DNA from: an uncultured Dehalococcoidia bacterium
Lineage (GTDB): Bacteria > Chloroflexota > Dehalococcoidia > Lucifugimonadales > Lucifugimonadaceae
Length of the DNA: 41,389 bases
Direction: 5' to 3'
Assembly: GCA_913048295.1 (NCBI GenBank)
Contig: CAJWWK010000017.1
Coordinates: 1-41,389 of the forward strand
The notes under the pieces are model-generated. The model ran no database searches, was not told the DNA's origin, and saw nothing but the letters and a program-made list of their open reading frames with translations. The stretch's first letter is position 1, and each line of letters begins with the position of its first letter. A program made the position numbers and the translations under genes. Below are positions 32,442 to 36,076 of the stretch, piece after piece.

Positions 32442-33299
32442 TCACACCTTGTTCACGTTGCGCGAATCAGCCAGCAATCCGTCGAGCGTCCCGCCCAGAA
32501 TTGCATCGCGATCTTCGGAAGTTACGAAATCGCAATGTGTCCTGAAAGCCTCAAGCGCCTGGAGGTGGGTCATCGATTTCTTGACTACCGGAAAATCGGA
32601 ACCCCAGCACATATTCCTGCCAAATGCCTGGTAGCACTCCTCGTACACCCATCTGGTATCTCGATACGGAAAGTTCCACGGGGTGTCGGTAAGGTAGTGG
32701 AATCCCGACAACTTCAGGTAGATGTTCGGTAATTTGCTCGATTCGATCACGTTGTCGACGCTTGCCCGCACGTCGTCACCGTGGGCTCGGAGCCCAGACA
32801 TGTGGTGGCAGAGGATGTTCAGATCGGGATGGCGTTCGGCGACCTTGCGCAACTGCCCCTGGTGGTGCGGTGCCAGGGCGATACTGGCGATCAGGCCAAG
32901 CTGTTCGGCGGTTTTAAAGAAGTCAATCCCGTCGGGTGAATTGAACCAGCTGGCATCGTCTTCGCCTGCCACGTAATGGGTGAACGCCTTCATGGGCCAC
33001 TTTTCGGCGGCCTGTTCAAGCCGGTTCGCAGCACCGGACGTGTGATAGGTGTCGGACCACATCGAATCGACATCGGCGAACTGCTCCAGCCGGTCGGGGT
33101 ACCGCGTAAGTGCGGCGGCAACGTAGTCGTTGTTATCGAAATTTTGAAATATCTGGGCACACACGATGGTCGCCCTGTCGACGCCGTTGGCATCCATCTG
33201 GTGGATCAGCTGCTCGACCGCGCCATGACTTTCGGGGTCGGGAACGGCAGGCAGATATGGCCAGTAGGCCCATGAATGACAGTGTGAATCGATAATCAT
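32442..33299 (-). CDS. Amidohydrolase-2 family TIM-barrel hydrolase
   Basis: A 285-residue metal-dependent hydrolase or decarboxylase of the amidohydrolase-2 family. The N-terminal MIIDSHCHSW supplies the HxH metal ligands (His6, His8), a central His lies in NILCHHMSG, YLKLSGFHYL marks a barrel strand, and CWGSDFPV near residue 235 supplies the conserved Asp at the end of strand 8. Relatives act on lactones, aromatic acids and similar small molecules; the substrate here is unknown. It is a single gene that diverges from the amt operon; the operator array lies in the shared upstream region. Confidence 0.87.
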   Translation of the reverse strand: MIIDSHCHSWAYWPYLPAVPDPESHGAVEQLIHQMDANGVDRATIVCAQIFQNFDNNDYVAAALTRYPDRLEQFADVDSMWSDTYHTSGAANRLEQAAEKWPMKAFTHYVAGEDDASWFNSPDGIDFFKTAEQLGLIASIALAPHHQGQLRKVAERHPDLNILCHHMSGLRAHGDDVRASVDNVIESSKLPNIYLKLSGFHYLTDTPWNFPYRDTRWVYEECYQAFGRNMCWGSDFPVVKKSMTHLQALEAFRTHCDFVTSEDRDAILGGTLDGLLADSRNVNKV

Positions 33300-33382: not shown

Positions 33383-33420
33383 GTAACAGGGGCGTCACAC
33401 CCCCGCAACATTCTTGAAAT
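33383..33420 (+). promoter_or_regulatory. Four-unit GlnR-like operator upstream of amt-glnK
   Basis: Four pentamers follow each other with exactly 6 nt between them: GTAAC (33383-33387), GTCAC (33394-33398), GCAAC (33405-33409) and GAAAT (33416-33420). This matches the actinobacterial GlnR box (gTnAC-n6-GnAAC, repeated twice). A TTGAAA -35 candidate (33414-33419) overlaps the last unit. The position, 64-101 nt before the amt start, suits nitrogen control of the operon. Confidence 0.6.
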
Positions 33421-33483
33421 ATTTAGGCCATAACTTTTGATCTGAACTCTTAATGACAGGTTTAAATGGGGGAGAGATTTGTA

Positions 33484-34698
33484 ATGGATTCTGGATCAGT
33501 AGCGTGGATGCTAGTCGCATCTGCACTTGTGCTGTTCATGGTTCCGGGGTTGGCGTTCTTCTACGGCGGTTTAGTCCGCGGTAAGAACGCAATCAACACC
33601 ATCATGTACAGCTTCGTCGCAATGGGAGTTGTCTCGGTCGTTTGGGTGCTCTGGGGTTACAGCCTGGCATTCGGCGAGGGTGGCCCTTTCATCGGAAACT
33701 TTGATTTCCTTGGCCTCAAGGATGTCTCGGCCACAGGAACGGATATTCATGGTGCTGGAGTGCCTGACCTCGGGGTCGCAATATTCCAGATGATGTTCGC
33801 TATCATCACACCGGCCCTGATTACCGGTGCAATTGCTGAACGCTTCAAGTTCACCACGTACCTCATTTTCCTGGTCTTGTGGGTCACATTCGTTTACGCC
33901 CCGATTGCCCACTGGGTATGGGCAGGTGACGGCTGGTTGTTCGAACTTGGTACGCTCGACTTCGCTGGTGGTACGGTCGTTCACATCAACGCCGGTGTAG
34001 CAGCCGTTGCAGCTGCTTGGTTGGTCGGCAAGCGCCGCGGCGTTGACCGTGGCGTCGAGCCTCACAACGTACCGTTTGTGATTCTCGGTGCCAGCATTCT
34101 GTGGTTTGGCTGGTTCGGCTTCAACGCCGGCTCAGGGCTCGCATCAGACGGCTTGGCGATTTCAGCCTTCCTGGTAACCAATACCGCCGCAGCCATGGCG
34201 CTGGTTGTCTGGGTCATACTTGGCCACATCCACACCGGCAAGATGAGCGCGGTTGGCGCTGCCACCGGTGCGGTTGCCGGACTTGTGGCGATAACGCCTG
34301 CGTCTGGTTTCGTTGGCCCGATGGGTGCGATCGCAATCGGTCTTGGCGCTGGAGTGCTTACTTTCTACGCAGTTCGAATTCGACACAAGTTCGGATTTGA
34401 CGATGCGCTTGAAGTAATGGCCGTACACGGAATTGGCGGTATCTGGGGCGCACTTGCAACGGGTATCTTCGTAGTCGGAGGGATTGGCCTTATCGATGGC
34501 GATGCCAAAGTACTGGGCTACAACGCCGTAGCGGTACTCTCAACTATTGCTTACTCGTTCGTCGTGACCTTCGTAATTCTGAAGATTCTTGACGTAATAC
34601 CTGGTCTGGGTCTCCGGGCTGATGATGCTGCCGAAGATGCTGGGCTTGACGTTTCACTCCACGGTGAGCGCGCCTATGTTGGCGATGGAGCCGACTAG
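33484..34698 (+). CDS. amt: Ammonium transporter
   Basis: A 404-residue Amt/MEP/Rh family channel with about eleven TM helices. Family segments include MVPGLAFFYGGLVRGKN near the N-terminus, AHWVWAGDGWL, DFAGGTVVHINAG with the first pore His, and EVMAVHGIGGIWGALATG with the second. It admits ammonium across the cytoplasmic membrane. ATG 33484 is preferred to the in-frame ATG 33466 because GGAG (33471-33474) lies 9 nt upstream, and no cleavable signal is seen. It is followed by a PII gene, whose product normally blocks the channel when nitrogen is plentiful. The upstream GlnR-like array suggests induction under nitrogen limitation. Confidence 0.96.
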   Translation: MDSGSVAWMLVASALVLFMVPGLAFFYGGLVRGKNAINTIMYSFVAMGVVSVVWVLWGYSLAFGEGGPFIGNFDFLGLKDVSATGTDIHGAGVPDLGVAIFQMMFAIITPALITGAIAERFKFTTYLIFLVLWVTFVYAPIAHWVWAGDGWLFELGTLDFAGGTVVHINAGVAAVAAAWLVGKRRGVDRGVEPHNVPFVILGASILWFGWFGFNAGSGLASDGLAISAFLVTNTAAAMALVVWVILGHIHTGKMSAVGAATGAVAGLVAITPASGFVGPMGAIAIGLGAGVLTFYAVRIRHKFGFDDALEVMAVHGIGGIWGALATGIFVVGGIGLIDGDAKVLGYNAVAVLSTIAYSFVVTFVILKILDVIPGLGLRADDAAEDAGLDVSLHGERAYVGDGAD

Positions 34699-34750: not shown

Positions 34751-34765
34751 AGGAGAACAGTGATC

Positions 34766-35119
34766 ATGATCAAAATTGAAGCAGTAGTCCGGCCCGAGCG
34801 TGTCAACCCGGTTGTCGACGCCCTGATCGATGCCGGATGCGGCGGTTACCACGTCGCAAACGTATCGGGTAAGGGAACCCAGCAGGGGGTTGAGGTGTTC
34901 ACCGGAAGAGGTGCGACCACTACAACCCGTGCGGCGCTACCGAAGTCGATTATCACGACGGTTGTAAGTGCCAGCATGAAAGATGCAGTGGTGAACGCGA
35001 TAATCGAAGCGGCGAAGTCGGGTGAAGAGGGTCAAATAGGCGATGGCAAGATATTCGTATCTCCCGTTTCCGAAGTGATCCGGGTACGCACCGGCGAGAG
35101 GGACAGCGCGGCGCTGTAG
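34766..35119 (+). CDS. glnK: PII nitrogen regulatory protein with atypical T-loop
   Basis: A 117-residue PII protein. MIKIEAVVRPERVNPVVDALIDAG, the B-loop SGEEGQIGDGKIFV and the C-terminal VIRVRTGERDSAAL are canonical, so ATP/ADP binding in the trimer clefts is expected. The T-loop region reads GKGTQQGVEVFTGRGATTTTRAALPK: the 2-oxoglutarate-linked Gln is kept, but the loop is two residues longer than in E. coli GlnB and lacks Tyr51, the usual uridylylation or adenylylation site, having four consecutive Thr instead. ATG 34766 is chosen at 10 nt from AGGAG; GTG 34760 is too close. Linkage to amt implies control of ammonium uptake. Confidence 0.93.
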   Translation: MIKIEAVVRPERVNPVVDALIDAGCGGYHVANVSGKGTQQGVEVFTGRGATTTTRAALPKSIITTVVSASMKDAVVNAIIEAAKSGEEGQIGDGKIFVSPVSEVIRVRTGERDSAAL

Positions 35120-35256: not shown

Positions 35257-35333
35257 AGGAGCGTAGCTCAGCTGGCTAGAGCACTGGTCTCCAAAACCAG
35301 CGGTCGGGGGTTCGAATCCCTCCGCTCCTGCCA
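35257..35333 (+). tRNA. tRNA-Trp (CCA)
   Basis: A complete cloverleaf: acceptor AGGAGCG/CGCTCCT, D-arm with AGCTCAGCTGGCTAGAGC, anticodon stem CTGGT/ACCAG around loop CTCCAAA (anticodon CCA), T-arm with GGTTCGAATCC, discriminator G (35330) and an encoded CCA. Confidence 0.97.
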
Positions 35334-35381
35334 AATTTGCATATGAATATTGGTATGCGGTTCGCCGCAGCTATCACCCGT

Positions 35382-35468
35382 GCCGGGGTGCTGAAATTGG
35401 TAGACAGGCTACGTTGAGGGCGTAGTGTTCGTAAGGACGTGCGGGTTCGAGTCCCGCCCTCGGCACCA
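35382..35468 (+). tRNA. tRNA-Leu (GAG)
   Basis: A class II tRNA with acceptor GCCGGGG/CCTCGGC (one G-T pair), anticodon stem CTACG/CGTAG around loop TTGAGGG (anticodon GAG), a long variable arm TGTTCGTAAGGACG, T-arm with GGTTCGAGTCC, discriminator A and encoded CCA. Confidence 0.96.
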
Positions 35469-35570
35469 TATATTTTTGTTCGACATGAGGTTTGTTTGTT
35501 GGACCGAACGAACCGCCCTGTTTGGCAAAGGTCTGCAAAACTTATATTTTCCGAATAGATTGATATTTGC

Positions 35571-35647
35571 GGCGACGTAGCCAAGTGGCTTAAGGCGAGG
35601 GTCTGCAAAACCTTTATTCGGCGGTTCGAATCCGCCCGTCGCCTCCA
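35571..35647 (+). tRNA. tRNA-Cys (GCA)
   Basis: Acceptor GGCGACG/CGTCGCC, anticodon stem AGGGT/ACCTT around loop CTGCAAA (anticodon GCA), T-arm with GGTTCGAATCC, discriminator T and encoded CCA. The D-arm contains GCCAAGTGGCTTAAGGC. A partial copy of its anticodon arm lies 40 nt upstream of the gene. Confidence 0.95.
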
Positions 35648-35812: not shown

Positions 35813-36076
35813 ATGGCACATCAGTTTGTACTGCACACCGTTGACGACTATGACAGGTGGTGAGCGGCCTACGACGATCATTTGCCGACCCGCCAGGAAT
35901 ACGGACTCAAGGAGCTAGGTGTTCACCGCGGGGCAGATAACTCGAACGATATAACGATTGTGTTTGAGGCCCAAAGTCTCGAGCGGGTGATGGCATTCGC
36001 AGAGTCGTCTGACTTGAAAGAGGCGATGATGGCGGCAGGGGTGCAGGGCATGCCGGATATCTGGTTCACCGACTGA
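35813..36076 (+). pseudogene. Small protein frame interrupted by one in-frame TGA
   Basis: From ATG 35813, preceded by an ideal GGAGG (35800-35804, 8 nt), the frame reads MAHQFVLHTVDDYDRW, then TGA (35861-35863), then AAYDDHLPTRQEYGLKELGVHRGADNSNDITIVFEA and on to a normal stop at 36076, 87 codons in all. The two halves form one coherent small alpha/beta protein of the dimeric ferredoxin-like (ABM/cyclase-type) kind, in which DYxxWKxxYDxH is usual, so the TGA replaces a residue that is normally Lys or Arg. A nonsense mutation, a sequencing error or UGA read-through could explain it. No Sec-insertion element was recognised. A strong terminator follows. Confidence 0.7.

Follow-up and report, generated by a model that had tools for sequence, protein, structure and literature searches.

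The closest described counterpart of the system considered here is GlnR, which a review treats, in the portion available, as an actinomycete regulator (PMC10704036). The Streptomyces coelicolor GlnR consensus given there is gTnAc-n6-GaAAc-n6-GtnAC-n6-GAAAc, and the A at the fourth position of the pentamer is described as important (PMC10704036, in part). In the activation complex, as set out in the same portion, four sites are occupied by DNA-binding domains arranged head to tail with a receiver tetramer bridging RNA polymerase, and the counterpart of Asp50 is needed in M. smegmatis GlnR (PMC10704036). S. coelicolor amtB is described as having three boxes (six sites), of which site a2 is atypical and occupies the -35 position (PMC5826061).

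We have analyzed here a comparable arrangement in a 41,389-nucleotide stretch of DNA (the window) from a member of the Dehalococcoidia, Chloroflexota, the host lineage having been taken for non-actinobacterial, correctly, in a sequence-only reading. That reading gave GTAAC, GTCAC, GCAAC and GAAAT with 6-nt spacers and an 11-nt period at 33383-33420, and direct reading agrees with it exactly. The features to which we refer are as follows.

33383..33420, + strand: candidate four-unit GlnR-type operator (a1-b1-a2-b2) with an 11-nt period, from pattern, conservation and consensus scores
33383..33387, + strand: unit 1, GTAAC (genus orthologues including the window: GTAAC in 11/12, TTAAC in 1/12)
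33394..33398, + strand: unit 2, GTCAC (genus orthologues including the window: GTCAC in 11/12, GTCAT in 1/12)
33405..33409, + strand: unit 3, GCAAC (genus orthologues including the window: GCAAC in 9/12, GAAAT in 3/12)
33416..33420, + strand: unit 4, GAAAT (GAAAC in the remaining 11/12 genus orthologues)
33429..33435, + strand: putative -10 element CATAACT, starting 8 nt past unit 4, from an alignment of 14 genus sequences
33468..33476, + strand: ribosome-binding-site-like GGGGGAGAG, read in the sequence, role putative
33484..34698, + strand: amt, ammonium transporter (TIGR00836, 437.7 bits, cut-off 343.3)
34760..35119, + strand: PII-family signal protein gene, 3' of amt (PF00543, 81.5 bits)
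32442..33299, - strand: divergent 285-aa ORF that limits the intergenic region upstream of the array

The spacers between the four pentamers are exactly 6 nt each, and the array ends 63 nt 5' of amt, whose ATG at 33484 is consistent with the starts in relatives. The proposal that the array follows the actinobacterial architecture, GTnAC-n6-GnAAC twice over, holds for the 5-nt units, the 6-nt spacers and the two boxes in a row, but not for the literal unit sequences: unit 2 is GTCAC rather than GnAAC, unit 3 is GCAAC rather than GTnAC, and unit 4 ends in T. Position four of the pentamer is A in all 12 genus sequences in each of the four units. On the S. coelicolor consensus, which is independent of the Dehalococcoidia genomes scored, the array reaches 14/18 and is the sole 14 among the 82,704 38-mers of the window (both strands), with one other at 13. 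It scores 19/20 on the consensus of its own relatives, with a runner-up in the window of 14, and when the upstream region is shuffled 2000 times with dinucleotides kept, the top score is 16/20 on that consensus, which is not independent of the array. Throughout the genome assembly (2.43 Mb, 89% complete) the relatives' four-unit pattern with at most three mismatches has one match, at 33383-33420, and the reversed control has none.

The position of the array relative to the promoter is likewise suggestive. The -10-like element is CATAGAT in 8/14 genus sequences, and the usual spacer between -35 and -10 is 17 nt; from the conserved -10-like element and a spacer of that length we place the -35 at 33406-33411, so that unit 3 would overlap it and unit 4 would lie within the -35/-10 spacer. 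Because the four units fall on one helix face, at a fitting -35 position if the -10 assignment is right, the array is probably an activator site overlapping the -35. In the DNA 3' of the PII gene we also note three tRNA genes (Trp cca, Leu gag and Cys gca) at 35257-35647 and, at 35813-36000, a small ORF starting MAHQFVLHTVDDYDRW with an in-frame TGA that by eye seems open beyond it and is possibly a broken gene. The T-loop of the PII protein (34760-35119) seems by eye to be without the tyrosine uridylylated in enteric PII.

The array is well conserved among close relatives. We searched for amt in 60 genomes (the window's own and 59 relatives), with matches in 52/60, and took 30 loci for study. 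In a pattern-blind alignment of 14 genus sequences, the mean majority-base fraction in the 13 other than the window, of which L094 and L095 had been recruited via the pattern search, is 0.96 in the pentamers (20 columns), 0.82 in the spacers (18) and 0.67 elsewhere (122); the pentamer contrasts have Mann-Whitney p values of 6e-4 and 1e-8 with columns treated as independent. A blind best-period search on the same conservation profile was uninformative. Outside the orthologue set, comparison with 500 dinucleotide shuffles gives an array at p <= 0.016 in 12/18 amt upstream regions, and L027, L029, L030, L035, L036 and L037 are without a significant one by this comparison. Three of these (L029, L030 and L035) are genus amt copies with 66-69% identity and have no array; in L027 the start is misplaced, and a site with three mismatches was located by the pattern search and is visible in L110.

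Over the 60 genomes the four-unit pattern matches 37 times, in 29 of them, and its reversed control 6 times, and 28 of the 37 sit no more than about 215 nt 5' of an amt match, as judged by coordinates. One of the remainder lies just 5' of glnA in an order-level relative (L083), two stand before a B12-binding-like gene (L090 and L091), and six are elsewhere, with no nitrogen gene identified adjoining them. The arrays in L090 (at 1171) and L091 (at 1501), two genus members, are near-perfect four-unit arrays with one mismatch, and by eye the gene that follows has a B12-binding-like domain and is succeeded by an SRPBCC-like gene. At the level of the class, an array is found at p<0.05 against shuffles in 18/30 amt loci and is not found at that threshold in 12/30, although the test is conservative for remote motifs because it uses the genus consensus. 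In six class loci (L276, L284, L286, L291, L292 and L293) glnR stands beside amt and yet there is no array at p<0.05, which may reflect motif drift or use of a different site. Thus the four pentamers, whose conservation before amt in close relatives had been suggested as a check on the array, are conserved in the genus and looser in many family, order and class loci. The best 38-mers in 19 actinobacterial amt upstream loci from 14 genomes score 10-15/20 on the Dehalococcoidia consensus, and units spaced by 11 nt are readable in several of these loci, not all.

A GlnR-type OmpR regulator, which the sequence-only reading had expected the genome to encode, is present. The genome has seven Trans_reg_C matches, and the gene at G000:C1:28987-29727 encodes the GlnR-type protein (P0001), whose best sequence matches in the PDB are 8hig (2.2e-38), 8hih (1.2e-37) and 8hml (2.8e-31), with VicR behind at 1.2e-26; by their titles 8hig and 8hml are Saccharopolyspora GlnR and 8hih is M. 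tuberculosis GlnR. In each of three actinobacterial genomes the top match to P0001 scores 136-148 bits, at least 55 bits more than the runner-up, which never exceeds 80.2, and P0001 has a match at 1e-25 in 50/60 genomes. The recognition-helix region GGTRTVDVH[IV]RRLR is nearly identical to that of actinobacterial GlnR, whereas two other OmpR-type proteins of the genome, L001 (SGDTRTVDVHVRWLR) and L003 (SGYDRTVDTHVSNLR), differ in it. In Foldseek alignments the winged helix is 54-55% identical to that of GlnR (55% over about 100 columns for 8hig) and the receiver region aligns to the GlnR structures at low identity; Pfam recognizes the DNA-binding domain and gives no match for the receiver. The predicted model of P0001 (pLDDT 82, pTM 0.55) has an N-terminal domain with alternating strands and helices, and with it PhoP and PrrA are the top full-length Foldseek matches, GlnR 8hih ranks eighth and TM is about 0.4 throughout. 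The model itself therefore does not single out GlnR, and it is identity alone that does so (37% over 8hih and 55% over the 8hig domain). Among the 25 NCBIfam families listed of the 40 that P0001 matches, there is no GlnR model.

In a tree, a branch with an SH-aLRT of 100 separates 15 OmpR paralogues from a side that holds 41 Dehalococcoidia rows, 14 actinobacterial GlnR and the three rows labelled Omnitrophota; the tree was made by a quick method without bootstrap, with long branches flagged, rows chosen by hand and VicR left out. The named rows had been recruited by patterns that include GGTRTVDVH. Branching among the groups is too weakly resolved to tell in which direction the glnR gene may have moved; L116, a SAR202 record, is paired in the tree with the order-level relative G041. 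The contigs labelled Candidatus Omnitrophota (L125, L150 and L151) encode a GlnR-type protein and may be mislabelled bins or instances of transfer, and L150 has amt, PII and glnA about 4 kb 3' of its GlnR-type gene.

The best reason to think that this regulator reads the array is that glnR is linked, in two arrangements, to nitrogen genes. The window genome has glnR, glnA and gltB in that order, all on one strand, and glnR lies directly 5' of glnA on the same strand in 18/18 genus loci. The gene directly 3' of glnR is glnA in 8/12 further family loci (L056-L067), two of the eight being a remote glutamine synthetase, and in 3/11 more family and order loci (L072-L082), one of which is again remote. 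In two genomes from other families of the order (L069 and L070) glnR precedes amt, and 15/26 class genomes outside the order have it no more than 1 kb 5' of amt and on the same strand, by coordinates and among the matches listed. In a sample of the phylum, and likewise among the matches listed, there is a match at 1e-26 in 31/38 class genomes; 10 genomes outside the class have matches listed at 2e-30 to 3e-27 that are indistinguishable from other OmpR-type proteins. Searches in the 11 kb around glnR identified glnA and gltB and no other ORF; the opposite flank appears by eye to hold translation genes, and no kinase was recognized on inspection.

The receiver domain of the genus proteins is non-canonical. 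The position of GlnR Asp50 is Trp in 18/18 genus proteins, and for this reason we use the term GlnR-type rather than GlnR proper; in the tree alignment, Asp50 is kept in 11/26 family and order rows, 5/9 class rows, 14/14 actinobacterial GlnR proteins and 15/15 paralogues. At position 52 the protein of the window genome has Arg, as in GlnR, and the other five aligned genus rows have Ala, Thr or Gly. With Asp50 lost in the genus, phosphate is a less likely signal, and a Trp-bearing receiver may differ in signaling or in dimerization. Actinobacterial GlnR is also reported to be unphosphorylated at Asp50, so the genus and actinobacterial GlnR would differ in signaling by degree. Asp50 does matter there for dimerization, and it follows that receiver contacts in the genus must have changed.

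We consider it very probable that a GlnR-type nitrogen regulator of the OmpR family uses the array as its operator in the Dehalococcoidia, and we infer binding, activation and a nitrogen cue from the comparisons above. The proposal that a non-actinobacterial lineage uses a nitrogen regulator of the GlnR/OmpR type gains support, at the level of sequence, from both the regulator gene and the conservation of the array before amt. We propose that the regulator from G000:C1:28987-29727 would act on the amt array, with each 11-nt unit bound by one of four winged-helix domains, arranged head to tail along a single face of the helix, and with unit 3 at the -35 and unit 4 between the -35 and the -10, and that RNA polymerase would thereby be recruited to amt-PII at nitrogen shortage, as in the actinobacterial GlnR activation complex. 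Since Trp stands at the usual Asp, the signal in the genus would not be phosphate on that residue, and might reach the regulator via a partner protein, another modification or its level of expression. A broader scheme, to which we give distinctly less than even weight, is that nitrogen control throughout the Dehalococcoidia relies on a GlnR-type tetrameric activator, that in the genus the activator has lost the acidic receiver residue and probably shares a transcript with glnA and gltB, that its activity is set by a partner such as glutamine synthetase or the PII protein in place of phosphorylation, and that the GlnR circuit either predates the Chloroflexota and Actinomycetota or moved between them.

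There are other readings of the array to consider. Binding by a different OmpR-family regulator (PhoB/MtrA/VicR-like, for example L001 or L003), with an incidental link to nitrogen, strikes us as improbable: Pho boxes also have an 11-nt period, and the seven Trans_reg_C matches of the genome include two full-length canonical regulators with the phospho-Asp, but no other site in the window fits the GlnR consensus as well as the array, P0001 has the GGTRTVDVH[IV]RRLR recognition-helix region of GlnR where L001 and L003 have others, and in many class genomes glnA or amt lies close to the GlnR-type gene, the one OmpR-type gene whose neighborhoods were compared. At units 1-2 most genus sequences have a near-match to the dyad GTGTAAC-n6-GTCACAC and, GTnAC being self-complementary, any GTnAC-n6-GTnAC resembles an inverted repeat; units 1-2 could accordingly be read as GGTGTAAC-n6-GTCACACC, the site of a dimeric CRP/FNR/NtcA-type regulator, with units 3-4 mere promoter sequence. 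We regard this as slightly less probable again, in that the units that are not self-complementary are conserved as well (unit 4 as GAAAC in 11/12, unit 3 as GCAAC in 9/12) and the remoter L034, L271 and L083 show direct repeats, GTAAC/GAAAY, past units 1-2. The conservation of units 1-2 upstream of the -35, and the clustering of pattern matches at amt (28/37) rather than at promoters generally, make it least probable of all, and very unlikely, that the resemblance stems from a conserved core promoter with no dedicated operator, even though units 3-4 overlap the putative -35 and spacer and the -10-like element is conserved too.

With the array taken as the operator of the GlnR-type regulator, the extent of the regulon can be considered. 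The classic target of GlnR is glnA, and the hint of a regulon extending to it and to nir and ure genes is not borne out in this genome, where the strict pattern occurs at amt alone and is absent from the glnR-glnA junction. No wider regulon emerged in the window genome, the four-unit pattern (at most three mismatches) matching the window site alone; the exact three-unit pattern also occurs there only at the window site, with one match for the reversed control. Autoregulation was considered and rejected, since in 18 genus loci the 260 nt 5' of glnR contain no array (at best 9-12/20), and an array at the glnR-glnA junction is similarly absent from 18 genus loci (best 10-12/20). A conserved palindrome-like element, TTGTGAAATTCACCACAAACTAATA, is seen 5' of glnR in many of the genus rows L038-L055, where there is no GlnR array, and may belong to a promoter or be bound by another regulator. 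A strict rule that the regulator and the array occur together is not supported, given the class loci with glnR-amt and no array and given G195, which has a clear array (L271), yet a best match to the regulator alignment model of just 92 bits. The label of global regulator is not supported in the window genome, in which the array is found once, before amt.

The Dehalococcoidia include abundant deep-ocean and subsurface bacteria and organohalide respirers. Within the titles and abstract starts of the open-access literature, with subscription literature mostly outside this scope, we found no account of a GlnR system in Chloroflexi, Chloroflexota or Dehalococcoides, and our comparisons suggest that nitrogen control of the GlnR type extends beyond its described range. 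If so, the Dehalococcoidia would gain a testable nitrogen regulator, operator and target, and the natural receiver variants (Asp to Trp) would be of use in probing how GlnR switches, which is unsettled even in actinobacteria.

Firmicutes GlnR/TnrA are of the MerR type and have only the name and nitrogen role in common with this system, the protein family and the operator being different. PhoB, MtrA and VicR bind tandem sites and have the OmpR-family fold in common, but the 15 OmpR paralogues fall on a separate branch of the tree, from which VicR is absent. The closest likeness is to the actinobacterial GlnR box (S. coelicolor glnA and amtB, M. smegmatis), with which the array shares four 5-nt units, an 11-nt period, A at the fourth position throughout, a last unit that is GAAAC in most relatives, amt-PII downstream and one unit at the putative -35; it departs from that box in that the genus of the window has GTCAC rather than GaAAC at unit 2 and GCAAC rather than GTnAC at unit 3. 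The protein compares with actinobacterial GlnR (8hig, 8hml and 8hih) in the same way, with an OmpR-type winged helix and a near-identical recognition-helix region, but with Trp in the genus for Asp50, and with an Arg52 that is present in the window's protein and in none of the five other genus rows. The gene order also sets the Dehalococcoidia apart, as glnR there precedes glnA-gltB or amt, an arrangement that the flanks of the actinobacterial loci examined did not show.
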